Below are positions 6,150 to 26,041 of a DNA stretch of 64,000 nt, one piece after another. The stretch is taken from assembly GCF_001677435.1 (NCBI RefSeq), contig NZ_CP016268.1:3647001-3711000 (forward strand). The letters run 5' to 3'. Source of the DNA: Woeseia oceani. Lineage in GTDB: Bacteria; Pseudomonadota; Gammaproteobacteria; Steroidobacterales; Woeseiaceae. A program made the position numbers and the translations under genes. Numbering within the stretch: the stretch's first letter is position 1; every line of letters starts with the position of its first letter. The notes beneath the pieces are model-generated. The model did no database searches. It worked only from the letters and a program-made list of their open reading frames with translations, and was not told where the DNA came from.

Positions 6150-6239
6150 GCGCTTTGGCTTCCGTCTGCGCTGCTTCCTCGGCTAAACTTGCGGCCATCA
6201 TCTGACCCGCAATGCTCCGTTGCGGAGGCGCTTGTTTCA

Positions 6240-6776
6240 TCACCTGACCAGTCGGGCGCTCCTGCTGGGCCGAACGTTAAGCATATAAAGAGCGCAACGC
6301 TTGATCCCTTGTGCGACATGTTTCTCAACGGTGCTTTCCTTAATGTCCAGCTTCATTGCTATTTCCCGTTGGGACAAGCCGTATACCTTTTTTAGAACAA
6401 ACACGCGGCGGCATTGCAGCGGCAAGTGTTTCACCGCTTTGCAAAATTGCGAATACTCTTCATTGATGACGACTTGCGCGAATGTCTCGTCATGCCGATC
6501 ATCGACTCCACGAAGGAAATCCTGTTCCTGTTCCGCAGAGTCAGCCAGCCGGGATTCCGCACGCTTCGTATAGTCCAACGCGAGATTGCGGGCCGTCCTG
6601 TACAGAAACCGTCGGGGTTCGCGTATCGGTTCCGCATTCGGGTTATGGCAAACCCGAATGTATGTTTCCTGCACAATGTCTTCAATTTCTTTAGGAGGCA
6701 CTATCCCGGCAATGGCACCGGCGAGACCTTCCTTTATAGAGAGAAAGATACTGGTGACGCTCTGATTATCCATCAT
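6240..6776 (-). CDS. ECF sigma factor, FecI family, without FecR
   Basis: 178 residues from the ATG at 6776, which follows AAGGGGG at good spacing; a longer in-frame start at 6791 would place that ribosome site inside the gene. Sigma region 2 is seen around residues 30-80 (EIEDIVQETYIRVC, FLYRTARNLALDY). The region 4 helix-turn-helix lies near the C-terminus (GLSQREIAMKLDIKESTVEK). FecI-type factors normally sit before a fecR anti-sigma gene; none is found here, because the next gene is the convergent PepSY gene. Its target promoters are not evident from the window. Confidence 0.88.
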   Translation of the reverse strand: MMDNQSVTSIFLSIKEGLAGAIAGIVPPKEIEDIVQETYIRVCHNPNAEPIREPRRFLYRTARNLALDYTKRAESRLADSAEQEQDFLRGVDDRHDETFAQVVINEEYSQFCKAVKHLPLQCRRVFVLKKVYGLSQREIAMKLDIKESTVEKHVAQGIKRCALYMLNVRPSRSARLVR

Positions 6777-7043
6777 ATTCCCCCTTGGCATTACACTGTC
6801 CGCCCCTGTTAGAAATGCGACTGATCGACTGCGATTTCACGCTCTGTGCAATCTATGGATCGCACAGAATCAATTTTCCCGCAGGGTTCTTAAACGGAAG
6901 ACAACGGCGCCAGTATTGGCCGCTGTAATTCTTCGAGACCGGTGGTCTACGTAGCTTTGCATCTTCACCACAAGCGTTACGTTGGGCACATGTACAAGCG
7001 CCGTAACTAAAGTTGCGCCTGGACTTGTGCGCTTCGCAAAGAA

Positions 7044-7787
7044 TCACTGATCGCACCAGGCGACCGCCACGATGCCAGCGGCAATTTCCTGAACCGGATC
7101 GATGATGGGAATTGCGACACCAAGCTGGTCCATTGCCTGCTGTGCTTCGGTACAGCCGACGATGATGCATTGCGCGCCATCGGCAACCATGGCATTTACG
7201 ATCGAGTTCAGGGGCGCACTACAATCTTCGGGCGTTGCTCCGGCGCGCAGTCGGGCCAGTACATCCATGAACTCAATGGCTCTCGCGGCATCGGGCTCGA
7301 CGCTGTCGATGCCATGCGCCTCCAGTGCGCTCTGAAACACGCCTGAACGAAGGCAGCCGTCTGTCGCCAGCACCCCTGCGCGGCCACCTTGCGGCATCAG
7401 GGTCGCTGCCCGCTCGACCGCTGCCTCAATCATGCTATCGAACGGGATATTGACTGATGCCTCAATTGCCGGGGCGTAGTAGTGCGCTGCATTGCAAATC
7501 ATGACCAGACGTTGGGCACCGGCTCTTTCCAGCGCCGATGCTGTGGCCACTAACGCATCCTCAGCCCTGGAGTCAGCGGCCAACAGCGAACTGTTGATAT
7601 CAGGGATGCCCGGATTGCAATCGATTATCAGCCGCAGATGCTCGGCTTCGGTAGTGACCGGAGTGAGTTGCAGGACGCGATCGAAAAACCGCAGCGTTGC
7701 GGCCGGCCCCAACCCGCCGATAACACCAACAGCCTGGCGACCGCGGGCAGCCCGCGTGGGTTCACAATTGTCGGCACGCTGCGTCAT
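7044..7787 (-). CDS. Aspartate/glutamate racemase family protein
   Basis: 247 residues. The family signature GVIGGLGPAATLRFFDR lies at 21-37. Both catalytic cysteines are present, C98 in MICNAAHYY and C212 in IIVGCTEAQ. These enzymes are cofactor-independent and interconvert L- and D-aspartate or a related acid in the cytoplasm. The CNAAH motif differs slightly from the usual CNTAH, so specificity could differ. It lies 182 bases downstream of a secreted S12 hydrolase on the same strand and may share its transcript. The neighbourhood has several other D-amino-acid genes. Confidence 0.88.
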   Translation of the reverse strand: MTQRADNCEPTRAARGRQAVGVIGGLGPAATLRFFDRVLQLTPVTTEAEHLRLIIDCNPGIPDINSSLLAADSRAEDALVATASALERAGAQRLVMICNAAHYYAPAIEASVNIPFDSMIEAAVERAATLMPQGGRAGVLATDGCLRSGVFQSALEAHGIDSVEPDAARAIEFMDVLARLRAGATPEDCSAPLNSIVNAMVADGAQCIIVGCTEAQQAMDQLGVAIPIIDPVQEIAAGIVAVAWCDQ

Positions 7788-7969: not shown

Positions 7970-9484
7970 CTATCTCTTTTTCAACTCAGTCCAATGTGGC
8001 ACGTAGTAGTGATAACGCTTCGTGCCCGAGGACACCGCGTTTACACCACCGACAAGATTTCGCGCGTCGTCCAGGTGCAGGTTGAGACGCAGCCCATAGG
8101 GACGCCGGTCGTTGAGCTCATCCGTATCGAGTTCGCCGTCCCAGTTGCCGCGCAGCCAGCCGTCCTTGAAGGAAACATCTTCCACGACCGTTGCCGCCTG
8201 ATCCCCTAGGCGCGCTTCGATGGTGTTATTGGCGATTGTCAGTCGCAACGGAATGTCCGACTCGTACGTGCTGACGGTACCGCGCCATTCGCCGTGCATG
8301 GAATCGGGAAGTGCCAACGGTGTCTGCTCTGCCGGGGTGGACTTGCCAAACTGCAGCGGCCAGTCACTAACCAGCGATTTGATGGCACGATTGGCAACTT
8401 GCCAACGCAGCGGCACACCCTTGGTCGGACTGCGATCATCAATACGATTGGTAAGTACCACGACCACCAGGTTCTCCTCGGGAATCATCGCGAGGATGGT
8501 CTTGACTCCAGGCATGCTGCCACCGTGACTGACGATCTCGTAGCCTGACTCCTGGTCGACACGCCAACCAAGGCCGTAACCTTCATGACCGCCCCGGCTG
8601 CACGCTGGGTGCCGCATTTGCTCGATGGTCGCGTTCGACAACACGGCCTTGCCGCCCGGCACCGGACTGCCGATGTGCATCATTCCAAAACGGACCAGGT
8701 CATGTGCACTTGAGTAAATGGCCGACGCGCCAGGATGATCGAAATCGTAGTGAGGCAGTACTTTTCCGTACTTGTCATAGCGCACGGCGGCGTAGGGCTC
8801 CAGTCCGGGCGGCACACCCACGCCACTGTGGGACATGCCGAGGGGACCGAAAACGGCTTCCCGCATGAAGTCCTCGTAGCGCGTACCGGAGACCCGACTG
8901 CCGATGTAACCAAGAATGCCGAAGCCGAGGTTCGAATAAACGTAAGCTTCGCCGGGAACCCCCACGAGCTTGCCATAGCGACCAATGGACTCGTTCACGG
9001 TCGGCAAGACCATCGGCTCATCGGCGTAGTAGAAGTTGACGTGCGTCGGCAAACCCGACGTATGGTTAGCCAATCGGCATACCGTTGCCGCGTCCGCGTC
9101 GCCGCGCCGGCCGGTCAGTTTGCCAGTGCCGAGGTAATCGTTGGCGGGCCGGTCGAGGTCAATTTTGCCGGCTTCAACGAGTGTCATCAGCGCGGTTGCG
9201 GTAATCGGTTTGGAAATTGACGCCAACGAATAGGTCGTGTGTTCCGTTGCGCGGGTGCGATTCTCAACATCCGCCCAGCCGAAACCTTCCTCCCAGAGAA
9301 TTTCACCATCCTTGGCCACAGCTATCGACAGCGACACAGTGCCGGCTTTCTGCGTGGCAACGACTTGTTCTATGTAATGCCGCGCTTCATCAAACCTCTG
9401 ATCCGCGGAAACTGGCTGAACTGCAATAGTGGCCAAAGCCAGCAATGCAAATCCAGCACTGTGCGGAATCTTGTTGCTAAACAT
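7970..9484 (-). CDS. Secreted S12 serine hydrolase (class C beta-lactamase-like)
   Basis: 504 residues with a Sec signal peptide ending near residue 27 (TIAVQPVSA). The S12 catalytic motifs are present: S89-x-x-K92 (SISK), Y183-S-N185 and a late HGG (VSHGGSMPG). A C-terminal beta domain of about 110 residues follows the catalytic core. The family includes D-aminopeptidases, DD-peptidases, esterases and beta-lactamases; the sequence alone does not fix the substrate. The start has GAGGGG upstream. It follows the TonB receptor gene by 71 bases, with a strong hairpin between, so it is likely the periplasmic enzyme for what that receptor imports. Confidence 0.9.
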   Translation of the reverse strand: MFSNKIPHSAGFALLALATIAVQPVSADQRFDEARHYIEQVVATQKAGTVSLSIAVAKDGEILWEEGFGWADVENRTRATEHTTYSLASISKPITATALMTLVEAGKIDLDRPANDYLGTGKLTGRRGDADAATVCRLANHTSGLPTHVNFYYADEPMVLPTVNESIGRYGKLVGVPGEAYVYSNLGFGILGYIGSRVSGTRYEDFMREAVFGPLGMSHSGVGVPPGLEPYAAVRYDKYGKVLPHYDFDHPGASAIYSSAHDLVRFGMMHIGSPVPGGKAVLSNATIEQMRHPACSRGGHEGYGLGWRVDQESGYEIVSHGGSMPGVKTILAMIPEENLVVVVLTNRIDDRSPTKGVPLRWQVANRAIKSLVSDWPLQFGKSTPAEQTPLALPDSMHGEWRGTVSTYESDIPLRLTIANNTIEARLGDQAATVVEDVSFKDGWLRGNWDGELDTDELNDRRPYGLRLNLHLDDARNLVGGVNAVSSGTKRYHYYVPHWTELKKR

Positions 9485-9513
9485 CGTAACTTCCCCTCGT
9501 CAAAGTATCTGGC

Positions 9514-9550
9514 GCCCTGCGAGGTGTCGCGTGGCGACACCTCGCAGGGC
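9514..9550 (-). repeat. 17-bp perfect stem-loop between receptor and hydrolase
   Basis: The arms at 9514-9530 and 9534-9550 are perfect reverse complements with a three-base GTG loop. The structure starts six bases after the stop of the upstream receptor gene and ends 29 bases before the next start. No T-run follows on the minus strand, so it is more likely an mRNA processing or stabilising element or an attenuator than a full intrinsic terminator. Confidence 0.75.
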
Positions 9551-9555
9551 TTCGA

Positions 9556-12363
9556 TCAGAATGCGATTCGCAACCCCACTGCATAAGCTCGCCCGGTACG
9601 GTCGTGCTGGGTACGGGAAGTCGGTTGCGACGACGTTGGTGTGATAGCCGGATCGCGATCGAACAGATTCGCGATTTTGGCGAAGAACTGAACATCACCC
9701 AGCGCCGTGTCGGTCCATGAATAGGAACCGGACAGGTTGAAGGAACTCCACGATTCCACGGTCGGATCGTCGTAGGTGACGCTCGGGTAGCGTATGCCCT
9801 TGTGCACGTATCGACCCTGTAACTGCATGTCCCAGGCGCCCATCGCGTAACCGACACTGGCCAGTGCGCGCCACTTGGGTCCGGCACCGCCGCCTGAAAC
9901 CACATCGGATACTTCGATCTGGCTTATGCCGTTATCCGATGCGTACTTGTCCAGATACGTGGCAAGCAGGCGGTAGTTCATCCTCGCGCCGGACTGCATG
10001 TCCCGAACGTATGAGGCTTCGATGTCAAGGCCGCGGGTTTCGAGTTTGGCCAGGTTGACGCTGGTATTCCGGACTTCCAGCAGCTCACCGCCTGGCCCTC
10101 TCGTAATGACGTCACAGAACTGCTGCAGGCCATCGGCACAGAAGTTGACGATGTTCTGCCCGCCCACTACCGAAATCACGTCCGCCACTTCGATGTCATA
10201 GGCATCGATGGAGAAGCGTGCGCCCTCGATAAAGTCCGGCGTGAGGACCACACCGAACGTTGTGGTATCGGCGATTTCCGGTTTCAGGCCTTCGTTACCG
10301 GTGCGCGGCGTCGGCACTGAAGGTTCCGAGACGCCAGTGACCGGGTTGAAGATCGTCGAGAACGACAGTGACAGTCCTGTGTACAGCTCTGCCAGATTCG
10401 GTGCACGAATATCCCGCGACTGAGTGAAGCGGAAGCGAACCTGCTGATTCGGCTCCCAGCTCGCGCCGAGTTTCCAGGTTGTTTCCGTGCCGCTCAGGTT
10501 GTAGTCGCTAAGCCGGATGGCGGCGTTCAGCTCCAGGGTTTCGGCCCAGGGCTTGTTACTGAGAACCGGCACAACGGTTTCCACGAAATAGTCGGTAACA
10601 TCGAAGTCGCCGCTGTACGGCTTGGAATTGCCAATATTGAAGAGTCCGTCAATAGCTTCCTGATTGACGGTTTGCTCCACCTCGTCCTGACGATGTTCGA
10701 TACCGGCAGCAACAGAAACCGGGCCAGCGCTGGTTGAGAAAGGCTCACCCGATATATCGAAACCGATCGCCGTCTGTGTCAATGCCCGGTCGAGATCGCG
10801 GCGGGAAAGAAAGTAGTCCGCAGCCTCCTGGCTTGGGGAACCGACACCGAAGAGATTGACCGGTACGCAGCCATTGCCAGGATCCGTCAGTGTGGACCGA
10901 CAAACAACATCTCCGCTTACCGGGTGGAAAACGGCATCGATGGATTCCGTATAGCGATCATTAAGACGATTTTCGCCAATATCCGCCTGGCTGGTATTCT
11001 CTCCATACTGCGCATATGCAGACCAGCTCCAGTCATCGAATACTGTCCCGTCAAAGCCCGCTGCAAGACGCAACATGTCATTGCCGTTATGCGTATTCTG
11101 ATAGTCGTAGTCATTGCTGTAACGCCCCATCGTGAACGACGTGACGCCTTCATCCATCATTCGCTGCTGTACAACAGCCGGCAAGTAAGCGTTGTCGTCC
11201 TGAATGGTTATTGCGCGATCCCGGGCAGTGAAGTACGCAATCTTGTAGTCGGTAACGGAATGCGCGTAACCCGCTTCCACGAAACCAGACAGGCTGTCTG
11301 AAAAATCATAGGTTGCGCCGAGGAACAGATTGCTTCTTTCAACAGGCGTGCTCAGTACCCGCAGAGACGGTTCGTACAGACCATCGCCGTTGGTCATGTG
11401 AGCTGAACTCAGGTTGTCTCCGTAGTTGAATTGCCGCACGGCCCCGCCAGGCAAGAATTCGGTACCACGCAACGGACCTGAGGTGATCAGGCCACCCGTT
11501 GTCGCGTTCGCGGCTGTGACATTGGATGCAATCAGGTACTGCGGTTCACCGTTGCCGGCCGCGTAGTTCGGGTTTGCGATTTGCAGGTGATGTCCCTGGA
11601 ACCAGTCCCGATTCTCACCAGAGGGCATACCCTTGTTATCACCGTATTCGCCACCGAAGTAGGCATGACCACGACCGCCGGCAAAGCCGATACCGCCGGC
11701 CAGGGAGAAGCGAAAATCTTCGGCATCGCCGAGTTCGCTTTCACCGTACTGAATCGTGCTCCTCAGACCGGTAATGTCGTCATCCATAATGACGTTGACC
11801 ACGCCTGCGACAGCATCGGAGCCCCAGGCAGCAGACGCGCCGCCGGTAACCATCTCGATTCGCTCGATCAATGCATTGGGTATGACGTTCAGGTCGACCA
11901 TACCTTCGGGCGTCGTCGAAACATGTCGGCGCTTGTTGACCAGAACCAGTGTCCGTTGGTTGCCCAGTCCGCGCAGGTTCATGAAGAACGTGCCGGCATT
12001 CGTTGTGCTGATGCCGGTATTCCCCGGTGTGGTTGAAGGACGTATCGCTGGCAACTCGTTGAGGTATTCGGCGACATTGGTAACGGCAGCACGTTCCAGT
12101 GTTTCGTTATCGATGATCGTTACCGGAGTTGGCGCTTCAAAACCGCTACGAGCAATTCGAGATGCCGTCACAACAACTTCTTCCAGCGTATCGGCACCAC
12201 CGCTGCCCGTCGTCTGTGCAACCGCGCCAGCCGACAACAGGCTCACGCCTATAGCGAGCAATGTTTTGCAATGAAAGTGCTTGCGGAGACAGCCGCGGCT
12301 GTCGACCTGCAGCCGTGCGGCAGTATTCTGTGAACGGTTTTGGTGCAATAGTAAATTTTTCAC
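9556..12363 (-). CDS. TonB-dependent outer-membrane receptor
   Basis: 935 residues from a GTG start preceded by AGGGGG. A long N-terminal region leads to a signal peptide (TLLAIGVSLLSAGAVAQ), then a TonB box EEVVVTASR, a plug (FFMNLRGLGNQRTLVLV, MVTGGASAAWGSDAVAG) and a 22-strand-type barrel ending in LRIAF. The plug type is common in proteobacterial receptors for organic substrates rather than classic siderophores. No Fur box was seen upstream. The downstream gene is a secreted S12 hydrolase, then aspartate racemase, which hints at a peptide or amino-acid-derived ligand; that is inference. Confidence 0.9.
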   Translation of the reverse strand: MKNLLLHQNRSQNTAARLQVDSRGCLRKHFHCKTLLAIGVSLLSAGAVAQTTGSGGADTLEEVVVTASRIARSGFEAPTPVTIIDNETLERAAVTNVAEYLNELPAIRPSTTPGNTGISTTNAGTFFMNLRGLGNQRTLVLVNKRRHVSTTPEGMVDLNVIPNALIERIEMVTGGASAAWGSDAVAGVVNVIMDDDITGLRSTIQYGESELGDAEDFRFSLAGGIGFAGGRGHAYFGGEYGDNKGMPSGENRDWFQGHHLQIANPNYAAGNGEPQYLIASNVTAANATTGGLITSGPLRGTEFLPGGAVRQFNYGDNLSSAHMTNGDGLYEPSLRVLSTPVERSNLFLGATYDFSDSLSGFVEAGYAHSVTDYKIAYFTARDRAITIQDDNAYLPAVVQQRMMDEGVTSFTMGRYSNDYDYQNTHNGNDMLRLAAGFDGTVFDDWSWSAYAQYGENTSQADIGENRLNDRYTESIDAVFHPVSGDVVCRSTLTDPGNGCVPVNLFGVGSPSQEAADYFLSRRDLDRALTQTAIGFDISGEPFSTSAGPVSVAAGIEHRQDEVEQTVNQEAIDGLFNIGNSKPYSGDFDVTDYFVETVVPVLSNKPWAETLELNAAIRLSDYNLSGTETTWKLGASWEPNQQVRFRFTQSRDIRAPNLAELYTGLSLSFSTIFNPVTGVSEPSVPTPRTGNEGLKPEIADTTTFGVVLTPDFIEGARFSIDAYDIEVADVISVVGGQNIVNFCADGLQQFCDVITRGPGGELLEVRNTSVNLAKLETRGLDIEASYVRDMQSGARMNYRLLATYLDKYASDNGISQIEVSDVVSGGGAGPKWRALASVGYAMGAWDMQLQGRYVHKGIRYPSVTYDDPTVESWSSFNLSGSYSWTDTALGDVQFFAKIANLFDRDPAITPTSSQPTSRTQHDRTGRAYAVGLRIAF

Positions 12364-15066: not shown

Positions 15067-16194
15067 CTATGCCGGGTCTGGCGTGGACGCTTTCGCATTT
15101 GCGTACATGCGGTAGATGCCGAAGGTCAGCAGCGGCACGATATACACGAACAGGAAACCCCAGGCCATGGTTCCGTACCCTTTGGCGATCAGGCTGCTGA
15201 TCCCCCACAGAGACAGACCTGAACTCAGCAAGATTGCCAGGACTGACAGCAATGCATGTTGCTTCCCGCCCAGCGGAACACCGCGCTTCTCAATCATGTA
15301 AGCATCGAGGCGCTCATTGATGCCTTGCAGCATGCCGGCTCCAGTCTCGATAAACGTTCCGAAAAGCATGATGCTGTAGATGATGACAAGCACCGACATC
15401 CCGGACTCTGACATCATCCAGTACACAGGAATAGGCTGCGCGACAATGGCAGGGTACGAGGCCATGAATGCCAGGTGAAAGAAGCACGCTGGCACAATCG
15501 CAATAGCTGAGGCAACGATTCCGGAGCAAACCGCCTCCTTTCGCGTTTTGAAATTACGCGCCACGAACAACAGCAGTGGCAATACGGCAAGGTTGTACAT
15601 GGCGTACTTCAGACCGCTTTGCCACCAACCCGGAGACACCTCCAGCACAGCCATCTCGGCCGATATTTCCGACCAACTGGTGGTAAATACCGCGTAGAAG
15701 ATCGCGATGAACACGATGTACAGAAAAAGCGACCAGAGGGTCAGAACTTTGGCAATGAAATCGCGGCCGTAGTAGGTCAGAAGGCCGACGGTAACCAGCA
15801 TGACCACTAGCCCGACGCCGTAGGGAATACCGAAATGATCCCGCAAAATATTGCCTGCGGCGGATGCCAGAACTCCAAGAATTAGCAGGAACTGCAGCAC
15901 AATGAGAATTTCAAACAAGAACCAGCCTTTGCCCAGCAATGTCTTGAAGAAATTCCGGTAGTCGAATACGGCGAAGTAACGAGAGAACTCGAAACTGGCT
16001 GCAAGCACCGCTGCCATCATGACAAAGGACATTGCGATTCCGGTCAGGCCACCGAGAGAACCGTAGGAAGTGAAGTATTCAACAATCTCGCGGCCGGTTC
16101 CGTAACCACCGCCGATCATGACGGACTGGAAAACAGCGCCGGGGATAATGTAGACCGAGATGAATCTTGAACCCAAAAACTTCTTCACAGGCAA
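15067..16194 (-). CDS. YkvI-like polytopic membrane transporter
   Basis: 375 residues with roughly ten hydrophobic segments spread over the whole length. It starts VYIIPGAVFQSVMIGGGYGTGREIVEYF, with the Gly-rich unwound first helix typical of the YkvI family, which is distantly related to APC/LeuT-fold transporters. It should sit in the inner membrane. The gene begins 24 bases after the D-aminoacylase-like gene ends, so the two are probably one transcript; the simplest guess is that it moves the substrate or product of that enzyme. There is no direct evidence for the substrate. Confidence 0.78.
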   Translation of the reverse strand: MPVKKFLGSRFISVYIIPGAVFQSVMIGGGYGTGREIVEYFTSYGSLGGLTGIAMSFVMMAAVLAASFEFSRYFAVFDYRNFFKTLLGKGWFLFEILIVLQFLLILGVLASAAGNILRDHFGIPYGVGLVVMLVTVGLLTYYGRDFIAKVLTLWSLFLYIVFIAIFYAVFTTSWSEISAEMAVLEVSPGWWQSGLKYAMYNLAVLPLLLFVARNFKTRKEAVCSGIVASAIAIVPACFFHLAFMASYPAIVAQPIPVYWMMSESGMSVLVIIYSIMLFGTFIETGAGMLQGINERLDAYMIEKRGVPLGGKQHALLSVLAILLSSGLSLWGISSLIAKGYGTMAWGFLFVYIVPLLTFGIYRMYANAKASTPDPA

Positions 16195-16218: not shown

Positions 16219-17967
16219 TTAGTTGCCGATCCGAGGTCTCAGTACCTGGCCGGGTCTCGCACCTGTATTGCGACCATCGTCGATCACCAGCTCGCCATTC
16301 ACCAGCAGGTAGTCGATACCTTTCGCGTACTGCATAGGCTTGGCGAAAGTCGCCGTATCGGTAATGCGGTTCTCGTCAAAAACCACAATATCCGCTGCCA
16401 TGCCAAGCTCAATCAAACCGCGATCCCTGATCCCCACGGATTGCGCCGGCAACGAAGTCATGCGGCGCACGGCATCCTCGAGTGACAACCACTGGTTCTC
16501 CCGAACATACCTGGCCAGCACACGCGGAAAGGCGCCGAACGCACGCGGATGGGTGCTTTTCGACGTTGCCGGATTGGCCGGAGCGGTGTCTGTTTCGACC
16601 GAGACCCAGGGCTGATTCAGTGCTGCGCGTTTCTGGCCATCGTTCATGCTTTGCGGCGCAACTGAAGTGCCGGCTTTGACCAACTCGAAGAACGTATCCC
16701 AGACATCCATGCCCAGAATATTTGCAGACTCCGCTATGGAATGCCCGACAATACTCGAGTCGATGTTGTCTGCCGTTTGCGTGACAACCACCTTGCCCCA
16801 GTCACTGCCGACGTTCTGATACCAGTTCTCCCAGACATTGCCTGGCGCTTCAATTTCAGCACGCAGGAAATCGCGGAACTGTTTATCGTCCAGCCTGGCG
16901 AGCAGAGCGGCACGACCACTTGCGTAATGCTGTGGCGCGATGAATGACCCAAGGCCGATGCCGTTGTTGATGTACGGATAGATATCAGCCGTCACGTTCA
17001 TGCCGGAAGCTCGGGCGGCATTGATTTTGTCGATGGCTTTGTCAAACAGCGGCCAGTTGCCATTGCCAGCCGCTTTCAGATGGTAGATATGCACTGATAC
17101 ACCGGCGCGCCGACCAATTTCCAGCGCTTCGTCGATGGCACCGAGCAAATCGTGACTTTCGTTGCGCATGTGCGTGAAATAGGTTCCGCCGAATGGCGCG
17201 ATCTCTTTGGCCAACTCAACAAGTTCGTCGGTACTCGCGTAGTTGCCGGGAGGATAGATCAGCGAACTGGCCAAGCCGGTTGCACCATCTTCCATCGCTT
17301 GCCGGACCAGCGCTTTCATGGCCGCCATATCCCTGGCACTGGGATCCACATCGTTATCGCCCAGCACCACACGGCGTACTTGCGCCGCACCAACCTTGTG
17401 CACAACATTCAATGGCAGTTTGCGCTCTTCGAGGATGTCGAAATACTCGGAGAATCGCGTCCATCGGTAGGAGCGGCCATCCGCCACTTCCGGATCAGGC
17501 TGCGTGAACCGGTTCTGCGGCGCATGCGACCAGCCCTCACCACTCGCGTGAGTGGTTATGCCCTGTCGCAACCTGGATTCCGCGGTCGGTCGGTCGGCAA
17601 CGTACGCGAACGACGACTGCCCCATCAGGTCGACGAAACCCGGCGATACAATTCGGTTGCCAGCGTTAATCGTTCGGGCAGCACTGGCGTTCTGCAGACT
17701 GCCAATGGCGACGATCTTTCCCTGTGCTATGCCGATATCCGCCTTGTACCACGGGTTTCCGGTGCCATCGACGATACGTCCGTTCGTTATCAGCACGTCG
17801 TACTTCGGGCCGCTTGTGGCCGAATCCGTCGATGCTGAGGACGCGCTACCTTGCTGATCGGCAGTCGCACATGCACCCAGCAGGAGCGCTGCAACGGTTA
17901 GACTTACTCGCGTGGCCCATTGTTTCAATGCCACACGCCCTGCAATGCCTTGCGTTCTGTTCCGCAT
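16219..17967 (-). CDS. D-aminoacylase-like amidohydrolase lipoprotein, HxH motif missing
   Basis: 582 residues from ATG at 17967, chosen because it begins a lipoprotein signal with lipobox LLGAC (Cys33); a longer in-frame start at 18093 adds unlikely sequence. The N-acyl-D-amino-acid deacylase fold is clear: ITNGRIVDGTGNPW, YFTHMRNESHD, VHIYHLKAAG, DIYPYINNG and HPRAFGAFPRVLARYVRE. The usual metal-binding PGFIDxHxH is PGFVDLMGQ at 109-117, so both histidines are absent, which sets it apart from textbook D-aminoacylases. It is exported and membrane-anchored, and lies between S12 hydrolases and a transporter. A role in cleaving acylated or D-amino-acid amides outside the cytoplasm is inferred. 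Confidence 0.85.
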   Translation of the reverse strand: MRNRTQGIAGRVALKQWATRVSLTVAALLLGACATADQQGSASSASTDSATSGPKYDVLITNGRIVDGTGNPWYKADIGIAQGKIVAIGSLQNASAARTINAGNRIVSPGFVDLMGQSSFAYVADRPTAESRLRQGITTHASGEGWSHAPQNRFTQPDPEVADGRSYRWTRFSEYFDILEERKLPLNVVHKVGAAQVRRVVLGDNDVDPSARDMAAMKALVRQAMEDGATGLASSLIYPPGNYASTDELVELAKEIAPFGGTYFTHMRNESHDLLGAIDEALEIGRRAGVSVHIYHLKAAGNGNWPLFDKAIDKINAARASGMNVTADIYPYINNGIGLGSFIAPQHYASGRAALLARLDDKQFRDFLRAEIEAPGNVWENWYQNVGSDWGKVVVTQTADNIDSSIVGHSIAESANILGMDVWDTFFELVKAGTSVAPQSMNDGQKRAALNQPWVSVETDTAPANPATSKSTHPRAFGAFPRVLARYVRENQWLSLEDAVRRMTSLPAQSVGIRDRGLIELGMAADIVVFDENRITDTATFAKPMQYAKGIDYLLVNGELVIDDGRNTGARPGQVLRPRIGN

Positions 17968-18091: not shown

Positions 18092-18117
18092 AAGCTCCGC
18101 GCTGACTAGCGGAGCTT
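18092..18117 (-). repeat. 9-bp stem-loop between S12 hydrolase and D-aminoacylase-like genes
   Basis: AAGCTCCGC and GCGGAGCTT pair around an eight-base loop, about 70 bases after the S12 stop and about 125 bases before the next start. No strong T-run follows, so it is a weak terminator or attenuator candidate. Confidence 0.45.
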
Positions 18118-18187: not shown

Positions 18188-19498
18188 TCAGCAGTCAGGA
18201 CACGCCAGCGCAATGGCGGCATCCATGAATCGTCCGTCTCCGGAGACAACGGAACCGGCGCCGACACCAGGTCCCGCGTGCATTGTTCCGGCATTGGTCA
18301 GGATCGCCAGCGCGACGCCCGACTTTGGTTCGTAGTACAACCAGCCTGAATAGCCGAGAACATCCCCGCCATGCCCAAGCACCCGATGCTCGCCGAGGTA
18401 ACGGCGAAAAACGCCGTAGCCCGTCTCAGCGACAGGCGCTGTATCCTCGGGACGTGCGTCCCGGACTGGCCGGAACGTGGCCAGATCGGCGATAGCTTGC
18501 TCGGATAACAAGGTGCCATCGAAAACGGCCACGCCGTAGCGCGCCAGATCGCCAGCGGCGGCGACCATGCCACCTGCGGCCCATTCAACTGAGAGGTTGG
18601 TTGCCGCCACATTGATAAGCTGGTCATCGACTGGCACGAAGGCTGCGTTCAGGCCGGCATCGCGGCGAAAATCCGGCGTGTTGAAATGGTAGCGGGTCGC
18701 ATGACGGTTTGCAGGAATCGGTTCGAAGCCCTCAAGGAATATGCTGTCAATGCCGACCGGCCTGCGAATTCGCGCTTCAATAACCGCGACGAGATCCTTG
18801 CCGGTAACCACTTCTACAACCCGGCCGAGCAAGGTGAAGTTGCTGTTTGAATAGCTGTATTGCGCACCCGGCGCGAACAAAGCAGGCTGACCTTGTATAT
18901 AACGCAATGTTTCGGTCTTGCCCCACACGTGACCAGGATCCAGCTCTGCGCCGCGACCTTCCCGCTTCCACGTCGCATCGTCTTCCCAGCTCGGAATGCC
19001 GCTGGTGTGATTCATTAGTTGGCGGACAGTAGCCGTATTCGCATTCGCGATACCGTTCACTTCATCGCCCAATAGGGAGGCAAGGGGCGCATCGAGATCA
19101 AGCTGACCTTCGTCTGCGAGTTGCTGCAGGATCACCGAGGTGAATGTCTTGGTGATGCTGCCGATCCCAAACAGCTGCTCCGGTGTTACCGCTTGCCGGT
19201 TTTCGATATCGGACCAACCCGCCGTTCCCGACCAGATCACGCCGTTCGTGGTGGCCACGGCTGCCGAAACTCCGGGCGCAATTCCGGCAAGCTCCTCGAG
19301 CAGCGCTTGCATTCTGTCACCGGCATTGACCGACTCGTTGCTGGCTGGATTCGCCAACGCTGTTGCCTCTGCAGAAACATCAGCATTGGCGGAAATGCGA
19401 TCAGCCTCTCCACTGCAAGCAGCGGCCACCGTCAGGCAGACCAGCAGCCAGGCATGGTGCCAGCCAACTGCATTCGTTCTTTTCCGCGTACTCGGCAT
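18188..19498 (-). CDS. S12 serine hydrolase, probable lipoprotein
   Basis: 436 residues from the ATG at 19498, which follows GGAGAG at good spacing; the frame is open further upstream. The N-terminal signal ends in a Cys28 site (TVAAACSGE) that may be lipidated, though the lipobox is imperfect. The S12 motifs are S114-x-x-K117 (SITK), YSYSNSNF and a late HGG (LGHGGDVLGYSG). It belongs to the beta-lactamase/D-aminopeptidase family and should act in the periplasm. It starts 31 bases after another S12 gene, so the two are one operon with the TonB receptor upstream. Confidence 0.9.
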   Translation of the reverse strand: MPSTRKRTNAVGWHHAWLLVCLTVAAACSGEADRISANADVSAEATALANPASNESVNAGDRMQALLEELAGIAPGVSAAVATTNGVIWSGTAGWSDIENRQAVTPEQLFGIGSITKTFTSVILQQLADEGQLDLDAPLASLLGDEVNGIANANTATVRQLMNHTSGIPSWEDDATWKREGRGAELDPGHVWGKTETLRYIQGQPALFAPGAQYSYSNSNFTLLGRVVEVVTGKDLVAVIEARIRRPVGIDSIFLEGFEPIPANRHATRYHFNTPDFRRDAGLNAAFVPVDDQLINVAATNLSVEWAAGGMVAAAGDLARYGVAVFDGTLLSEQAIADLATFRPVRDARPEDTAPVAETGYGVFRRYLGEHRVLGHGGDVLGYSGWLYYEPKSGVALAILTNAGTMHAGPGVGAGSVVSGDGRFMDAAIALACPDC

Positions 19499-19529
19499 GG
19501 GTCTCTCCATTGCGTGCGTAACATTTGCG

Positions 19530-21230
19530 CTAGTCAATACGGTCCAGGCGCACTCGTCGCGCACGTTCCGAGGAAATGTACAAGGCGGATGGGCGGCCAT
19601 CAGCGCCACGCTGCACAATGACTTCGTGCATTGGCCACTCACCTTCGAACTTGTCTGCTACTGTCGCGTGCAGAGTGACAGGTGCTGTCCACAGGCTCTC
19701 GATAATCAGCTCGTCGCCCTTGACCGACAGTGTATAGGTGACGTCCAGCTCCTGACTTCTGTAGTTGCCGGCGAGAGCCTCAAGATCCGCAAGTGGGGGT
19801 TGCGCACGTTCAATTTTCCGATAGACGAAATGCTGACCATTGACCGGGCTTCCGCCGCGCATCGCGATACCAGTGATTTCGCCACGCGCATTTCGCACTG
19901 CACGGTAGTTCGTTCCGTACAAGCGCGACTCGTCACCGAAATCGAAACTGCCATCGTCGCGGAAGACCACGGGTTTCGCTTCGTCGTCGAGTGCACGGTA
20001 AGTCAATGCGCCATCGTCCACTTCCAGGACCAGAACGGGACGATTGTCATGAATATATTGCCCCCGCAGCTTGGCAACCAATGCTTCATCGGGATTTATC
20101 GCCGCCGGCAGTGACTTTTTCCAGGCACCAGGCTGGTAGTCGGCATTCAGGTAGATCGCGGCGATTTCTTCGAGCGGCTTCAGCAGGTTCGTTGGTGAAT
20201 TTGCCAGAATGGTGACGGCGAAGTCATCGTCCGGAAATACCGCAATGATCGAGCGAAAGCCGGCGTCAGAGCCCGAGTGAGAAATCGCGCCATGGCCGGC
20301 GATCTCCCGCTTTTGCAGTGCGAAGCCATAGTTCAGATGCGTGCCATCGGCCAGCTGACCGGATTCATGCATACGGGTCAGAGCTTGACCGGAACCCACT
20401 GTCGGGTGCAGGAAATTGCCGGCCCAGGCCAGCAGGTCATCAACACTCGTGTGCAAACTGGTAGCGCCGACATTGTCGAAGTTGAGCGGCGAACGGTGCC
20501 ACGTGCCGTCTTCATTCTTCTCGTAGGATTGCGCACGATTCGGCAAGACCTCGGTGACGTCGTCATAGAAAACGGTATTGATCATGCCGAGCGGCTCGAA
20601 AATTCGCGCCGCGGTAAATTCGCGCAGCGACTGACCCGATACGGCTCCGACCAGCTCGGCCAGTACGGTATAACCGGCGTTGGAATACGCGTAGTCGCTG
20701 CCCGGCGCAAAATTCAGCGCCTGTTGTCGCTTCATCATCGACACGACCTGGCGCTGCCGCAGCCGGCTGTCCATTTCGAGACCACCCAGCACGAACAATG
20801 TCCATTGATCGCGCAGGCCGCTCGTGTGGTAGATGAGCTGGCGCGGACTGATCTCTTGACCGAAGTCCGGAACCCAGGGCAGGTTCTCGCGGACATCACT
20901 GTCCAGATCCAGCTTGCCTTCTGCCTCCAGCAATGCCGCAGAAAACGCGACAAACTGTTTGGAAACGCTGGCTACATGAAAGACGGTCGTTGGGGAAATC
21001 GCAATATCGTGCTCCAGGTGAGCGCGTCCATAGCCGGCTGTCTTGACCGCTTGTCCCTGATAATAAACACCGACTGCAAGGCCTGGCGAGCCGGGCTGCT
21101 GGTATTCCGCGAACAGCGCATCGACAGCCGCAGACTGATCTTCCATCCTGTCTGCGGCCGGCAAAAAACCAGCTGGCAGCGTTACCGCTGCCAGCAGAAC
21201 CAGAATCGAACGCGATTTAGCCATGTGCAT
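19530..21230 (-). CDS. S12 serine hydrolase with C-terminal extension
   Basis: 566 residues with a signal peptide (SILVLLAAVTLPAGFLPA). The motifs are S88-x-x-K91 (SVSK), YAYSNAGY and HSG (ISHSGSDAGF). After the catalytic core of about 350 residues there is a further 200-residue beta-rich region like the DUF3471-type tails of related esterases and peptidases. It starts 32 bases after the TonB receptor stop and is followed 31 bases later by a second S12 gene. The receptor plus two paralogous hydrolases suggests import of a substrate that needs two related cleavages. Confidence 0.9.
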   Translation of the reverse strand: MHMAKSRSILVLLAAVTLPAGFLPAADRMEDQSAAVDALFAEYQQPGSPGLAVGVYYQGQAVKTAGYGRAHLEHDIAISPTTVFHVASVSKQFVAFSAALLEAEGKLDLDSDVRENLPWVPDFGQEISPRQLIYHTSGLRDQWTLFVLGGLEMDSRLRQRQVVSMMKRQQALNFAPGSDYAYSNAGYTVLAELVGAVSGQSLREFTAARIFEPLGMINTVFYDDVTEVLPNRAQSYEKNEDGTWHRSPLNFDNVGATSLHTSVDDLLAWAGNFLHPTVGSGQALTRMHESGQLADGTHLNYGFALQKREIAGHGAISHSGSDAGFRSIIAVFPDDDFAVTILANSPTNLLKPLEEIAAIYLNADYQPGAWKKSLPAAINPDEALVAKLRGQYIHDNRPVLVLEVDDGALTYRALDDEAKPVVFRDDGSFDFGDESRLYGTNYRAVRNARGEITGIAMRGGSPVNGQHFVYRKIERAQPPLADLEALAGNYRSQELDVTYTLSVKGDELIIESLWTAPVTLHATVADKFEGEWPMHEVIVQRGADGRPSALYISSERARRVRLDRID

Positions 21231-21262: not shown

Positions 21263-23500
21263 TCAGAAATGTCTCGTGAGTTTGAGTCCGTATGTCCGTG
21301 GCGGCAGGAAATCGCCGAGATCAGGGTAACCAAATTCATCCGAACTTGATTTGGACCGCCCGGTAAGGGCAACTTCGTCCAGCACGTTTTTGACGTACAG
21401 GTCTGCACGCCATGCCTGATCCTGACTCTCCCAGACCAGTCGTGCATTCATCCACTGGTACGACGGCACCGTACTGAAGTCATAGTTGTGAATACCGCCT
21501 TCACGTTCGCCCATGTAGGACATATCAGCACGCCATTGCAACGTGCCACGACTGTCGAGATCGGTCTCGTATTGCAGACCGATGTGAGCCTGCCATTCGG
21601 CAGAGTTCGGTAGCTTGTTTCCTGTAATGTCCTGCAGACCGTCGACGCCGAGCGAATCCTGAATAATCAGGCCGTCGTATTCGGAATCCTGCCAGGTCAG
21701 GGAGGCATCAATCGAGAATCGGTCGCTGACCAGTGCCTGCCCTTCCATCTCAACACCGCGGATGACGGTATTGGGTACGTTCTGAATCATGCCACCAGGT
21801 GTGAGTACGCCCTCGTCCAGCAAACGAATACGCTCCTGCTTGTCTTCGTAGTCGCTGTGGAACGCGGCAACGTTCAGGCGCATCCGACCATCGAGAAGGT
21901 CACTCTTCAACCCGAGTTCGAAAGCGTTGACGTATTCGGGGTCGTAAGCGCTAAGAATAAAGATGCCGCCTGCCTTATAACCGGTCGCGTAGGACGCATA
22001 GAGCATGGCGTCATCGCTGGCCTGATAGTTCAGGGCCGCACGGTAGGTGAACTGCTCCCAACTGCGATCGACAACCACCGTCTCGAGATCAAGAGTGCCG
22101 CCAAAGTTACCGCCGGAAATCGACAGCTGATCCTTACTGTCTTTCGTGTAACGGCCGCCAATAGCCAGTTCCAGCTTGTCGGAGAATGCGTACTCGATCT
22201 GCCCATAGACGCCCAGCGACTTGACTTCCCAGGAGTAAGTCTCCTGAAACAGTGACTTCGGCGTGGTCTGGTCGTACAGGTTGGCCACCGTGTTGTCATT
22301 GGCAAACTCGGTGAATAGCGGGCTGTCCTGATAATAGTAGAAAAGCCCGGCCTGCCCGGATACTGCACCGTCATTCTGGAACAGGAACTGCAATTCCTGC
22401 GTGAACGTTTCCATCGGCAAGTCGGTGTAGGTCGTGACACTCAACACATCCGACGCATCGAGATCGGCCCAACGAGTCGTCTGCGAATCGTTGTAGCTGG
22501 TCATCGACCGTATCTCCATATCACCCAGCTCCCAGATGACGTCCATGGAAAGGCCGACAGCCTCGTCTTGCGTCTCACCGGGATTGTTCAACTTGACCGT
22601 GTGCCGGTCCGAAACGGTGGGATTGGTTCCGGCACCATTGATGACGTAGAAATCGGCACTGAAACTTTCGCCCAGTGGCGGGTACTCGTTAAAACGCCGG
22701 AACGAAATGCTGTTCGCAAAACTGTCGTAGTAATAGGCACTGAACTGAACGGTAACGTCATCGGTCAGGTCGTAATCGAGCGCCGCGCGTATCGTCGTGT
22801 AGTCGGCATTGACGTAGCTGGACGCGCCTCGATTGGACAAATTGCGAACGTAGCCGTCGCGCTTTTCGTCGGAAACGCTGAGCCGGCCGCGCAATCTGTC
22901 GCTGAGCGGCCCACTGATGACGGCCTGCACAGCGCGTTTGTCAAAACTGCCAAGATCCACCGAAAAGGCTCCTTCGAGACTCTCACTCGGACGCTTCGTA
23001 ATCACGTTGATCGAGCCACCGATGGCGTTACGTCCGTACAGTGTGCCTTGCGGTCCGCGCAGCACTTCAACGCGTTCTACATCGAGGAAGTTTCGTGCGA
23101 GGATCGCCGTGGATTGCATGTAATGGCCATCAACGTGCATGGGCACGCCTGGGTCCAGAAGAGCGTTTACAGTGCCAACGCCGCGAATTGTTGCGACGAT
23201 ATTGGTCCAGCCGTTGCCCGCCTGCTGGCCGAGATTAAGATTCGGTACGGAGAACTGCAGGCCCTCCGGACTGTCAATGCCACGCAGCTCCAGCGACTCG
23301 GAAGACAAAGCCGAAATTGCGATAGGCACCGTTTGCATGCTTTCCGCGCGCTTCTGCGCGGTAACGATGACTTCCTCCAGCGCCGCTGAACTGTTGTCGC
23401 TCTGTTGTGCCTGTACGCTGCCTGTGCCAGCAACGACAAGCAACGCAACGGCCGGCAATGTTGCCGCCACGCGCGGAATATCGGATAGCCGATTGAACAT
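21263..23500 (-). CDS. TonB-dependent receptor of the LysR-linked operon
   Basis: 745 residues from ATG at 23500, preceded by AGGGGG; the longer frame from 23584 would run into the regulatory palindrome. A signal peptide ends in SVQAQ, then come the TonB box EEVIVTAQKR, a plug (RVEVLRGPQGTLYGRNAIGG) and a barrel ending in GLKLTRHF. This plug type is abundant in receptors for diverse organic molecules. It leads an operon with two S12 hydrolases and is transcribed away from a LysR gene 100 bases off. Its ligand is probably a peptide, lactam or acyl amino acid, by inference from its neighbours. Confidence 0.9.
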   Translation of the reverse strand: MFNRLSDIPRVAATLPAVALLVVAGTGSVQAQQSDNSSAALEEVIVTAQKRAESMQTVPIAISALSSESLELRGIDSPEGLQFSVPNLNLGQQAGNGWTNIVATIRGVGTVNALLDPGVPMHVDGHYMQSTAILARNFLDVERVEVLRGPQGTLYGRNAIGGSINVITKRPSESLEGAFSVDLGSFDKRAVQAVISGPLSDRLRGRLSVSDEKRDGYVRNLSNRGASSYVNADYTTIRAALDYDLTDDVTVQFSAYYYDSFANSISFRRFNEYPPLGESFSADFYVINGAGTNPTVSDRHTVKLNNPGETQDEAVGLSMDVIWELGDMEIRSMTSYNDSQTTRWADLDASDVLSVTTYTDLPMETFTQELQFLFQNDGAVSGQAGLFYYYQDSPLFTEFANDNTVANLYDQTTPKSLFQETYSWEVKSLGVYGQIEYAFSDKLELAIGGRYTKDSKDQLSISGGNFGGTLDLETVVVDRSWEQFTYRAALNYQASDDAMLYASYATGYKAGGIFILSAYDPEYVNAFELGLKSDLLDGRMRLNVAAFHSDYEDKQERIRLLDEGVLTPGGMIQNVPNTVIRGVEMEGQALVSDRFSIDASLTWQDSEYDGLIIQDSLGVDGLQDITGNKLPNSAEWQAHIGLQYETDLDSRGTLQWRADMSYMGEREGGIHNYDFSTVPSYQWMNARLVWESQDQAWRADLYVKNVLDEVALTGRSKSSSDEFGYPDLGDFLPPRTYGLKLTRHF

Positions 23501-23582
23501 GATGTCTGCCCCCTGAAATGTTAGCGCATCCATTTCATGTGCTGGAGGCTCCAGTGACAAACGACTTGTACTCACAAGTACC

Positions 23583-23597
23583 ATTAGCTAGGCTAAT
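23583..23597. promoter_or_regulatory. LysR-type palindrome beside the regulator gene
   Basis: ATTAGCTAGGCTAAT is a perfect 6+3+6 inverted repeat and contains the T-N11-A core typical of LysR-type sites. It ends three bases before the LysR start and lies in the divergent gap to the TonB receptor. A near copy occurs at 24647-24661. Confidence 0.75.
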
Positions 23598-23600
23598 GCC

Positions 23601-24548
23601 ATGCATTTGAGCCCTTCCCTGATCACCTGGTTACGCTGCTTCGAAGCCGCCGCCCGCCTTAACAGTTTCACGCGCGCGGCCAACGACCTGCACCTGACCC
23701 AAAGCGCCGTGAGTCAGCAAGTACGCCACCTTGAGCAACATCTCGACGCCCGTTTGTTTCACCGACTGCCCGGTCGCCTGGAACTCTCGCACAGCGGCCA
23801 CCGCCTGTATGCCGAGATTGCCCCGGCTCTGCGGCGGATCGAACAGGCAGTGGAGGAAATACGCACGCCCGAGGCGCCGTTTCACCTCAGCTGCTCGCCA
23901 TCATTCGCCAATCGCTGGTTGATGCCGAGGCTGGGTCGATTCCTGCGCCAGCACCCGGAAATTGACCTGCACCTGCGCGCGGAATTTCACGCGCTCAGCC
24001 GGGATAATTTTGTCCGTGAAGGCCTGCACGCAGCCATACGTTATGACCCGTTCAGCTACAGTGACCTCGCCACGCATGACCTGATGAGCGAGCATCTCAT
24101 TCCGGTCGCGTCCCCCGAATTCCTTGAGAAACAAGGTGCAAAGCCCGGCACGCTCGAACTCGCCGATGCCACACTGTTGCATGACTCCGCCCCCTGGGAC
24201 GGTGCGCCCAACAATGTCGAGTGGCAAACGATCCTGAGTGCGCTCGATTTCCCGGAAAACACCCCGTACAAGAGTTGCTACTTCAACATGGCCGAACTGG
24301 CACTGGCCTCTGCCCGTTCCGGCGAGGGAATTGCGGCAGCACGACTCACGCTCGCTATCGACGACCTCGAATCGAAGCGTTTGATTCTGGTGGTTGCAGA
24401 TCCGATCCCCGCCAGTTCCCGTTACGTATTCGTGTCCGTGGATAACGATGATCCGCGCGTTGAATCGGTATTGGCCTGGCTAAAAACCGAATGCGAGCAA
24501 TTCATAATCCGCCGTGATGCCCTTCTGAGCGGAGTTGCACCGACTTAG
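23601..24548 (+). CDS. LysR-family regulator, GcvA-like
   Basis: 315 residues. The N-terminal winged helix-turn-helix is clear (FEAAARLNSFTRAANDLHLT, then QSAVSQQVRHLE), followed by the periplasmic-binding-protein-like effector domain from about residue 90. The start aligns with GcvA-type proteins, yet no ribosome site is visible and a palindrome ends three bases upstream, so the mRNA may be leaderless or autorepressed. It is divergent from the receptor-S12-S12 operon and is followed by dsdA. The shared palindrome suggests it controls both; the inducer may be a D-amino acid. Confidence 0.9.
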   Translation: MHLSPSLITWLRCFEAAARLNSFTRAANDLHLTQSAVSQQVRHLEQHLDARLFHRLPGRLELSHSGHRLYAEIAPALRRIEQAVEEIRTPEAPFHLSCSPSFANRWLMPRLGRFLRQHPEIDLHLRAEFHALSRDNFVREGLHAAIRYDPFSYSDLATHDLMSEHLIPVASPEFLEKQGAKPGTLELADATLLHDSAPWDGAPNNVEWQTILSALDFPENTPYKSCYFNMAELALASARSGEGIAAARLTLAIDDLESKRLILVVADPIPASSRYVFVSVDNDDPRVESVLAWLKTECEQFIIRRDALLSGVAPT

Positions 24549-24742: not shown

Positions 24743-26041
24743 ATGCCCCGAGTAGGAGTGCATTCCGTCAGTCGCACCACTGGATTTGGAATGCACGAAA
24801 AACTCCTGACCAAATTGCGGGGCGGGGAAACAGCCGTCTGGCTTAAATCCGCCAAAGCGGACTTTTTTGACGCCGAGGCTGCTCGCGCTGACGTTGCTGC
24901 CGCCGAGATACGCTGGCAACGGTTTGCGCCCGCACTGGCACGACTGTTCGATACTCCAGGCGGCCTTGGCCGAATCAACTCACCACTGTCCGAATACCCG
25001 GCGTCGTTGCCAGCCCCTGCCCCCGTCTACGTCAAGGCGGACCATTCGCTGCCCATTACGGCGTGCGTCAAAGCGCGCGGTGGAATCTTCGGACTGCTCT
25101 GTGTGATTGAGAAAATCGCCCAGGATGCCGGACTGTTAAAAGAGCAGGAAACGTATGCAATCCTTGCCGATGAACCGGCACGAAGAATTCTGGCAGAACA
25201 TACTGTCGTGGTCGCGAGCACAGGGAACCTGGGATACAGCATCGGTGTTGCGGCCATCGGCTTTGGCATGCAGGCTGAAGTGCACATGTCGGACGACGCC
25301 AAAGAATGGAAAAAGGCGCGTTTGCGTGAACTCGGTGCGACCGTGGTGGAACACGTCGGCGATTACACCAGCACCGTGAGTTCGGCCCGAACCAGCGTTG
25401 CCGAACGGGACAAGACTCACTTCATTGACGATGAAAATTCCTGGGATTTGTTTGTCGGTTATGCCGGCGCCGGGGAAGAACTTGCCCAGCAGCTTAAACA
25501 GGCGAACGTCGACGTTTCTGTGGAGCACCCGCTCGTCGTGTATTTGCCCTGCGGTGTTGGCGGTGCACCCGGCGGCATTACCTACGGCCTGAAGTCCATT
25601 TTCGGCGATGCCGTTGTCTGTGTTTTCGTCGAGCCCGTTAACTCTGCCTGCGTGTTCGTAGCGCTGGCCTGCGACGGTGCACTCAAATCGGTCTATGACG
25701 TAGGACTGTCCAACAATACAGAAGCCGACGGTCTTGCGGTCAGTCGTGCATCGGAACTGGTGCTGAATAAAGTAGGCAAGCAGATCGATGCTGTCGTCGC
25801 CGTGCCAGACAAGTCGATGACCGACTGGGTTGGCAAAGCGTGGAGCAATGCCGCCTTGAGGCTCGAGCCATCGGCAACAGCGGGATTCGCGGCACTTGAA
25901 CCGTTCTTGCAGGCAATTGACGCCGACGTGACGAGCAACGGCACACGACCCGCGCTAAAGAACATCGCGCAAGGCACTCACGTGGTCTGGACCACCGGCG
26001 GCGACCTCATGCCGGAAGATATCTTCCAGCAGTTTCTGTAA
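24743..26041 (+). CDS. dsdA: D-serine ammonia-lyase (D-serine dehydratase)
   Basis: 432 residues, close to the 442 of the Escherichia coli enzyme. The PLP lysine lies in PITACVKARGGIFGLL (K110), the phosphate-binding and substrate loops are seen as STGNLGYSIGV and PCGVGGAPGG, and DGLAVSRAS near the C-terminus is also family-typical. It deaminates D-serine to pyruvate and ammonia in the cytoplasm. The start is uncertain: ATG at 24743 or in-frame ATG at 24791, with an in-frame stop at 24725. The LysR-type palindrome upstream ties it to the receptor operon. Confidence 0.92.
   Translation: MPRVGVHSVSRTTGFGMHEKLLTKLRGGETAVWLKSAKADFFDAEAARADVAAAEIRWQRFAPALARLFDTPGGLGRINSPLSEYPASLPAPAPVYVKADHSLPITACVKARGGIFGLLCVIEKIAQDAGLLKEQETYAILADEPARRILAEHTVVVASTGNLGYSIGVAAIGFGMQAEVHMSDDAKEWKKARLRELGATVVEHVGDYTSTVSSARTSVAERDKTHFIDDENSWDLFVGYAGAGEELAQQLKQANVDVSVEHPLVVYLPCGVGGAPGGITYGLKSIFGDAVVCVFVEPVNSACVFVALACDGALKSVYDVGLSNNTEADGLAVSRASELVLNKVGKQIDAVVAVPDKSMTDWVGKAWSNAALRLEPSATAGFAALEPFLQAIDADVTSNGTRPALKNIAQGTHVVWTTGGDLMPEDIFQQFL

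Follow-up and report, generated by a model that had tools for sequence, protein, structure and literature searches.

A conserved variant of the D-aminoacylase active site that lacks the HxH motif, in Woeseia oceani and related sequences

The window analyzed here, a stretch of 64,000 nucleotides from the genome of Woeseia oceani, encodes a D-aminoacylase-like amidohydrolase in which the HxH motif is absent and a glutamate, Glu144, aligns with the zinc-binding cysteine of the known enzymes. The results of our analysis indicate that this departure from the usual D-aminoacylase active site is genuine and conserved, and a search for HxH-less D-aminoacylases found no earlier description among the literature matches listed (CC-licensed articles in PMC). 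The amidohydrolase superfamily is commonly recognized by HxH, and proteins without it thus run the risk of being called inactive. We consider it probable, on the contrary, that the window protein is an active and presumably exported amidohydrolase of the D-aminoacylase family, which would work with one metal held by Glu144, His266 and His296 and act on an N-acyl-(D-)amino acid. The features on which this reading is built are collected in table 1.

Table 1. Features of the amidohydrolase gene and its surroundings (positions in the window; AfDAA, D-aminoacylase used as reference)
Feature	Position	Strand	Remarks
HxH-less D-aminoacylase-like amidohydrolase	16219..17967	-	582 aa from ATG at 17967
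PGFVDLMGQ replacing PGFIDxHxH	17617..17643	-	Residues 109-117; translation and alignment
Glu144 in GEG at zinc-Cys position of D-aminoacylase	17536..17538	-	Placed by sequence alignment only; loop one residue shorter
Predicted metal ligand His266 (matches His220 of AfDAA)	17170..17172	-	His in every row of all four groups
Predicted metal ligand His296 (matches His250 of AfDAA)	17080..17082	-	His in every row of all four groups
Predicted carboxylate anchor Lys298 (matches Lys252 of AfDAA), together with Tyr238, Tyr330 and Arg475	17074..17076	-	Alignment, with roles from excerpts of PMC12017989
WEN motif	16825..16833	-	Residues 379-381
Predicted catalytic acid/base Asp460 (matches Asp366 of AfDAA)	16588..16590	-	Asp invariant across the four groups
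Hydrophobic, probably polytopic membrane protein, possible transporter	15067..16194	-	Membrane character assigned by eye
PF00144 (S12, beta-lactamase fold) serine hydrolase	18188..19642	-	SITK, YSN, HGG; frame from GTG, ATG at 19510
Second PF00144 (S12) serine hydrolase	19530..21230	-	SVSK, YSN, HSG motifs
TonB-dependent receptor	21263..23584	-	First gene of same-strand run
LysR-type regulator	23601..24548	+	Divergent from TonB gene
D-serine ammonia-lyase	24743..26041	+	NF002823, 443 bits (cut-off 246)

The altered motif and the predicted fold

The original prediction had pointed to PGFVDLMGQ in place of PGFIDxHxH at residues 109-117, which our translation confirms (the 30 bases quoted at the time, 17614-17643, span residues 109-118). 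In the alignment with characterized D-aminoacylases of solved structure, Met115 and Gln117 occupy the columns of both HxH histidines, which we take to be His67 and His69 in the Alcaligenes enzyme, and Glu144 falls, across a gap of one residue, at the position of the zinc cysteine. The accompanying claim that the other family motifs were intact does not hold for this cysteine, since GNCG is replaced by GEG; His266, His296, Asp460, Tyr238, Lys298, Tyr330 and Arg475 are still present. A species-genome scan with the window protein retained 80 loci, and GEG is carried by all of the 76 nearest ones (L050 to L125), whereas HxH is absent from every one of the 75 that cover the stretch, where MxQ, MxG, MxA or MxT are found instead. 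The change is therefore neither chance nor a sequencing slip, and an error or pseudogene peculiar to the W. oceani genome is hardly conceivable given that the frame is open without internal stops and the same motif class recurs in independent genomes. The 4.06 Mb genome itself contains 14 clear members of the family (for example L002 to L018; split matches merged, three weaker matches excluded), four of which lack HxH. A second HxH-less group, formed by sequences of this genome and their relatives, reads PGFINMLSWA or similar and has GEG or close forms of it.

An alternative TTG start at 18093 would lengthen the protein to 624 residues. Its residues 30-33, LGAC, look like a lipobox when read by eye and constitute a putative lipoprotein signal. 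(A crude pattern finds a lipobox-like cysteine, within the stretch to which it was applied, in 33 of 76 frames of the nearest relatives, group A below; lipoprotein nature was dropped as a family-wide trait.)

Structure modeling with AlphaFold2 on an alignment of 40 rows gave a confident D-aminoacylase-like fold (pLDDT 92.1), in which a predicted strand, residues 137-142, stops right before Gly143-Glu144. The best structural matches of the model are D-aminoacylases, with Z scores of 55-56 over 462-469 residues and 32-34% identity: 3gip (Z 56.1, rmsd 2.4, 463 residues, 34% identity), 9g5m (Z 56.0), 1m7j (Z 55.2) and PpOngB, 9kb3 (Z 55.1), after which the next family drops to Z 34.0. Homology to D-aminoacylases extends over the full length (phmmer E 1e-69 to 1RJP), which places the protein in the family, and the Pfam gathering scores are passed for Amidohydro_3 (65.9 bits, cut-off 29.7) and Amidohydro_1 (33.9 bits, cut-off 25). 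The score with PRK09061 (NF006560), 198.6 bits, lies below the curated cut-off of 340, and no NagA (CE9) model occurs among the 25 of 55 NCBIfam models listed as matching the protein. With MxQ it departs from the HxH criterion of the amidohydrolase superfamily, which is not absolute, E. coli NagA being a member with QxN (excerpts of PMC6016474). Regarding the metal-site subtypes described in PMC12017989, the two histidines and the catalytic Asp of subtype V (Cys/His/His) have aligned counterparts in His266, His296 and Asp460, but its Cys ligand is replaced by Glu144; the candidate residues for a subtype IV (Glu/His/His) site are, by the same alignment, all present and invariant.

Distribution and history of the glutamate and HxH changes

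To see how tightly the two changes are coupled, we aligned 141 rows, including two solved reference enzymes; the sample was gathered with the window protein as query and leans toward its kin. HxH is absent and Glu present in 100 rows, which belong to groups A (that of the window protein) and B, and one more Glu row ends at the HxH stretch; the first HxH position is Met in 77 of the 78 rows of group A and a gap in the remaining one. The 39 rows with HxH have Cys, Asp or Ser at the Glu144 position in 35 cases, the two solved enzymes included, and Glu in four. Both HxH and Glu are missing only from L087:2332-3831, which belongs to another subfamily. (This protein reads PGFIDPLTQ, with Asn at the Cys position, and its gene lies between those of a further amidohydrolase, with HxH, at 220-1713 and of a group A member at 5785-7614.) A later sample covered genomes at class level (369, with four matching at E 1e-90 or better) and at phylum level (398, with 19 matching at E 1e-60 or better); 24 frames were found and, once two noise frames had been dropped, 22 previously unsampled members were counted. 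Among these, Glu is found in 7/7 members without HxH and Cys or Asp in 15/15 members with it.

The pairing of HxH loss with the change from Cys to Glu supports, at the level of sequence, the earlier suggestion of a different metal arrangement, and the well-populated group marked by both features does the same for its companion, a distinct subfamily. It is this accompanying change, overlooked in the original prediction, that renders the loss of HxH intelligible. Glu does not force the loss, since four rows hold both. In these four close relatives (L166, L167, L169 and L170) HxH is kept, the shorter loop contains Glu, and Asn stands at the position of the carboxylate-binding Lys298; they could possibly represent an intermediate, or else a third chemistry.

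Phylogenetic trees were constructed with 69 rows (quick tree) and, after removal of the motif columns, with 64 rows (careful tree); two L087 amidohydrolases were left out, rows at least 72% alike were thinned, the rows with HxH and Glu were restored, and five long-branch rows were left out of the careful tree. In both trees the 44 Glu rows lie on one side of a branch, the support of which is 90 in the quick tree and 88/77, with 89% of 200 bootstrap trees, in the careful tree, below the program's star level. The distribution of HxH needs two changes on the tree; as the data do not reject a topology with all HxH-less rows in one clade (p-AU 0.268), two losses are a reading of the tree rather than a result. 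An order in which Glu came first and HxH was lost afterwards, perhaps twice, fits this topology but is not proven by it.

Conserved residues of the site and the substrate pocket

Conservation was compared in four groups, of which A comprises 78 rows and B 23. His266, His296, Asp460, Tyr238, Lys298, Tyr330 and Arg475 are invariant in 78/78 and 23/23 rows, respectively, and the positions matching them serve zinc binding, catalysis and the anchoring of the substrate amide and alpha-carboxylate, according to the excerpts of PMC12017989. The invariance of these seven residues argues for catalysis, and that of Tyr238, Lys298, Tyr330 and Arg475 favors a substrate of the N-acyl amino acid type.

In the mechanism that we propose, a single divalent metal, probably zinc, would be bound at the beta site by Glu144, His266 and His296, whereas the alpha site would be lost because HxH is gone. 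Asp460 would activate the metal-bound water and protonate the leaving amine, the acyl carbonyl would be polarized by Tyr238 together with the metal, and Lys298, Tyr330 and Arg475 would grip the alpha-carboxylate of the N-acyl-(D-)amino acid. The Glu that replaces Cys has probably assumed the role of HxH around the catalytic Asp, so that HxH could drift, to MxQ or MxG here and mostly to LxW in the second group, as it may have done to QxN in E. coli-type NagA.

The protein might instead be a pseudoenzyme that has kept the fold and lost the chemistry, given that it lacks HxH as well as the Cys ligand and that CRMPs, which share the amidohydrolase fold and are not known to have enzymatic activity, are among the structural neighbors of the model. 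We regard this as very improbable, for none of the two His, the Asp, Lys and Arg or the new Glu varies in the 101 rows that make up the two groups, unlike what is expected of a decaying site, and group A alone spans records of six phyla.

The WEN motif bears on the number of metals. Its W, E and N are found in 77, 78 and 78 of the 78 group A rows and in 23, 22 and 23 of the 23 group B rows; the motif is missing from all four rows with HxH and Glu and, among the 33 other HxH rows taken from loci (the two reference enzymes left out), W and E occur in one and N in two. Such near invariance in the HxH-less groups would suit a site that still binds two metals, the alpha site being rebuilt, for example, by Glu380 or Asn381 of WEN, by His293, which is present in 78/78 group A rows, or by a bridging Glu144, in the way that a Glu bridges the two metals of M. 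smegmatis NagA, where the second metal has Glu/His/His ligands (excerpts of PMC6016474). However, group B has Glu or Lys in place of His293, and one zinc on Cys/His/His, at the beta site, suffices for full activity of PpOngB (excerpts of PMC12017989). Moreover, WEN is not tied to HxH loss, since the archaeal record L127 (Culexarchaeota) has kept HxH and Cys, yet possesses the whole motif of the HxH-less groups. Two bound metals thus appear unlikely to us, and a single beta-site metal remains our preferred reading.

The substrate pocket differs from that of AfDAA at four positions: Phe191 is replaced by Ile237, Met254 by Ala300, Met346 by Ser440 and Leu368 by Ala462. Leu368 touches the acetyl methyl in AfDAA, and its counterpart is variable in group A, group B and HxH rows alike; among the other anchors given in PMC12017989, Leu114 aligned poorly and the comparison did not span Ser289. 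These replacements, together with the shift of the same scaffold to GlcNAc1A in PpOngB (PMC12017989, in part), give some weight to a change of substrate class or reaction, of which Glu and the loss of HxH would be part; a different reaction had been suggested in the original prediction as well, and amino sugar acids, lactams and further amides are examples of what might then be hydrolyzed. Considering that the four anchors of amide and carboxylate are invariant and that a D-serine ammonia-lyase is encoded in the same region, we hold such a shift to be conceivable but rather doubtful, and retain an N-acyl-(D-)amino acid as the favored substrate.

Gene neighborhood and comparison with known enzymes

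The minus-strand run consists of the TonB receptor, the two S12 hydrolases, the amidohydrolase and the membrane protein, with gaps of 32 bases between the TonB and S12 genes, 220 between S12 and amidohydrolase and 24 between amidohydrolase and membrane protein; the choice of start codon decides whether the S12 frames overlap or adjoin. The S12 hydrolase next to the TonB gene resembles the D-aminopeptidase model NF009622 (159.5 bits, under the cut-off of 443), and the membrane protein has no Pfam or NCBIfam match at E 0.001. The D-serine ammonia-lyase, which scores 363.5 bits with TIGR02035, just below the cut-off of 368.25, lies behind the LysR gene, 6.8 kb from the amidohydrolase and divergent from it, and in outline the region looks like one of D-amino acid catabolism. 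(Of note, a second pair of TonB receptor and S12 hydrolase is found a few kilobases away, at 7970-12363 on the minus strand.) At this locus the amidohydrolase may deacylate D-amino acids that the neighboring S12 hydrolases free once their substrates have entered through the TonB receptor, and D-serine is a candidate for one of its products. None of the other loci was found to have a D-serine lyase nearby; this is a weak test, the flanks being mostly 5-8 kb against the distance of 6.8 kb, and with a match in the window alone the lyase is not supported as a family-wide partner.

Counting as linked an S12 domain that is fused, or encoded within 400 bases on the same strand, we found the link in 22 of the 78 group A rows, 13 fused and 9 adjacent (the window included). 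Fusion at the C-terminus occurs in 12 relatives from Planctomycetota and Verrucomicrobiota (L100, L104, L106, L107, L110, L111, L114, L117, L118, L119, L123 and L125, the HxH stretch being cut off in the latter), and L112 has the reversed order with S12 at the N-terminus. When unfused, the S12 gene lies downstream in seven cases and upstream in two, one of which is the window; the other eight, seven downstream and one upstream, come from Gemmatimonadota and Acidobacteriota. Elsewhere the link is seen in 1/23 group B rows, in 0/33 rows with HxH and Cys, Asp or Ser (one of them has S12 on the opposite strand) and in 0/4 rows with HxH and Glu; flanks shorter than 1.5 kb on one side affect 11/56 of the negatives in group A and 3/32 in the HxH group. 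The Fisher p of the association, 0.0002, ignores kinship and is not relied on here. Since 56/78 group A and 22/23 group B rows are without the link, S12 neighborhood as a family constant was rejected. (In L131, a weak S12 match with E 1.2e-7 that immediately adjoins the paralogue of group B stayed under the count threshold, and 10 proteins surrounding two Gemmatimonadota members, L072 and L055, show no common theme.) The fusions provide a functional lead for a little-studied group of enzymes.

Compared with the D-aminoacylase of Alcaligenes (1M7J/1RJP) and the N-acyl-D-glutamate deacylase of Bordetella (3GIP), the window protein has the same fold, metal His pair, catalytic Asp and four substrate anchors, but lacks HxH, has Glu for the zinc Cys in a shorter loop and carries a probable lipoprotein signal. 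The N-acyl-D-amino-acid deacylase of Klebsiella (9G5M, 9GV8), for which our literature search found no describing paper, is alike in fold, matching the model over 469 residues. PpOngB, a GlcNAc1A deacetylase (9KB1), has the D-aminoacylase fold and the Tyr/Lys/Tyr/Arg anchors in common with the window protein; the single beta-site metal demonstrated in PpOngB is what we infer for the window protein, which has neither the HxH nor the Cys97 that PpOngB retains (excerpts of PMC12017989). HxH is essential in PpOngB, where H68A or H70A abolishes activity though neither His binds zinc (PMC12017989, in part), and MMNagA retains some activity with QxN but none with AxA (PMC6016474, in part). The loss of HxH is thus not harmless by itself, and the group must have compensated for it, the coupled Glu being the obvious candidate.

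More tentatively, and without giving it an even chance, we suggest that these proteins form a large, little-studied branch, with records from Gemmatimonadota, Acidobacteriota, Planctomycetota, Verrucomicrobiota, Pseudomonadota and Bacteroidota, in which the zinc Cys became Glu once and HxH was shed at least twice, echoing the difference between binuclear and E. coli-type NagA. Part of the branch would pair with S12 hydrolases, even within one fused chain, and process N-acyl-D-amino acids or peptides containing D-amino acids in two steps. The coupling of Glu and HxH, the possible intermediates and the parallel with NagA open to mutational testing the question of which ligand change makes HxH dispensable.

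The closest likeness in working is that with E. coli-type NagA, in which HxH is replaced (E. coli and V. cholerae both have QxN) and one metal is bound (excerpts of PMC6016474), the metal site of the NagA (CE9) family being Glu/His/His (excerpts of PMC12017989). In K. pneumoniae NagA, E131, H143, H195 and H216 are reported as metal coordinating and D273 among the substrate residues (PMC12409433, in part). E. coli-type NagA is a sugar phosphate deacetylase of another family, CE9, to which the window protein probably does not belong; the latter is most likely comparable to it in being a functional deacylase that uses one metal in a Glu/His/His site.
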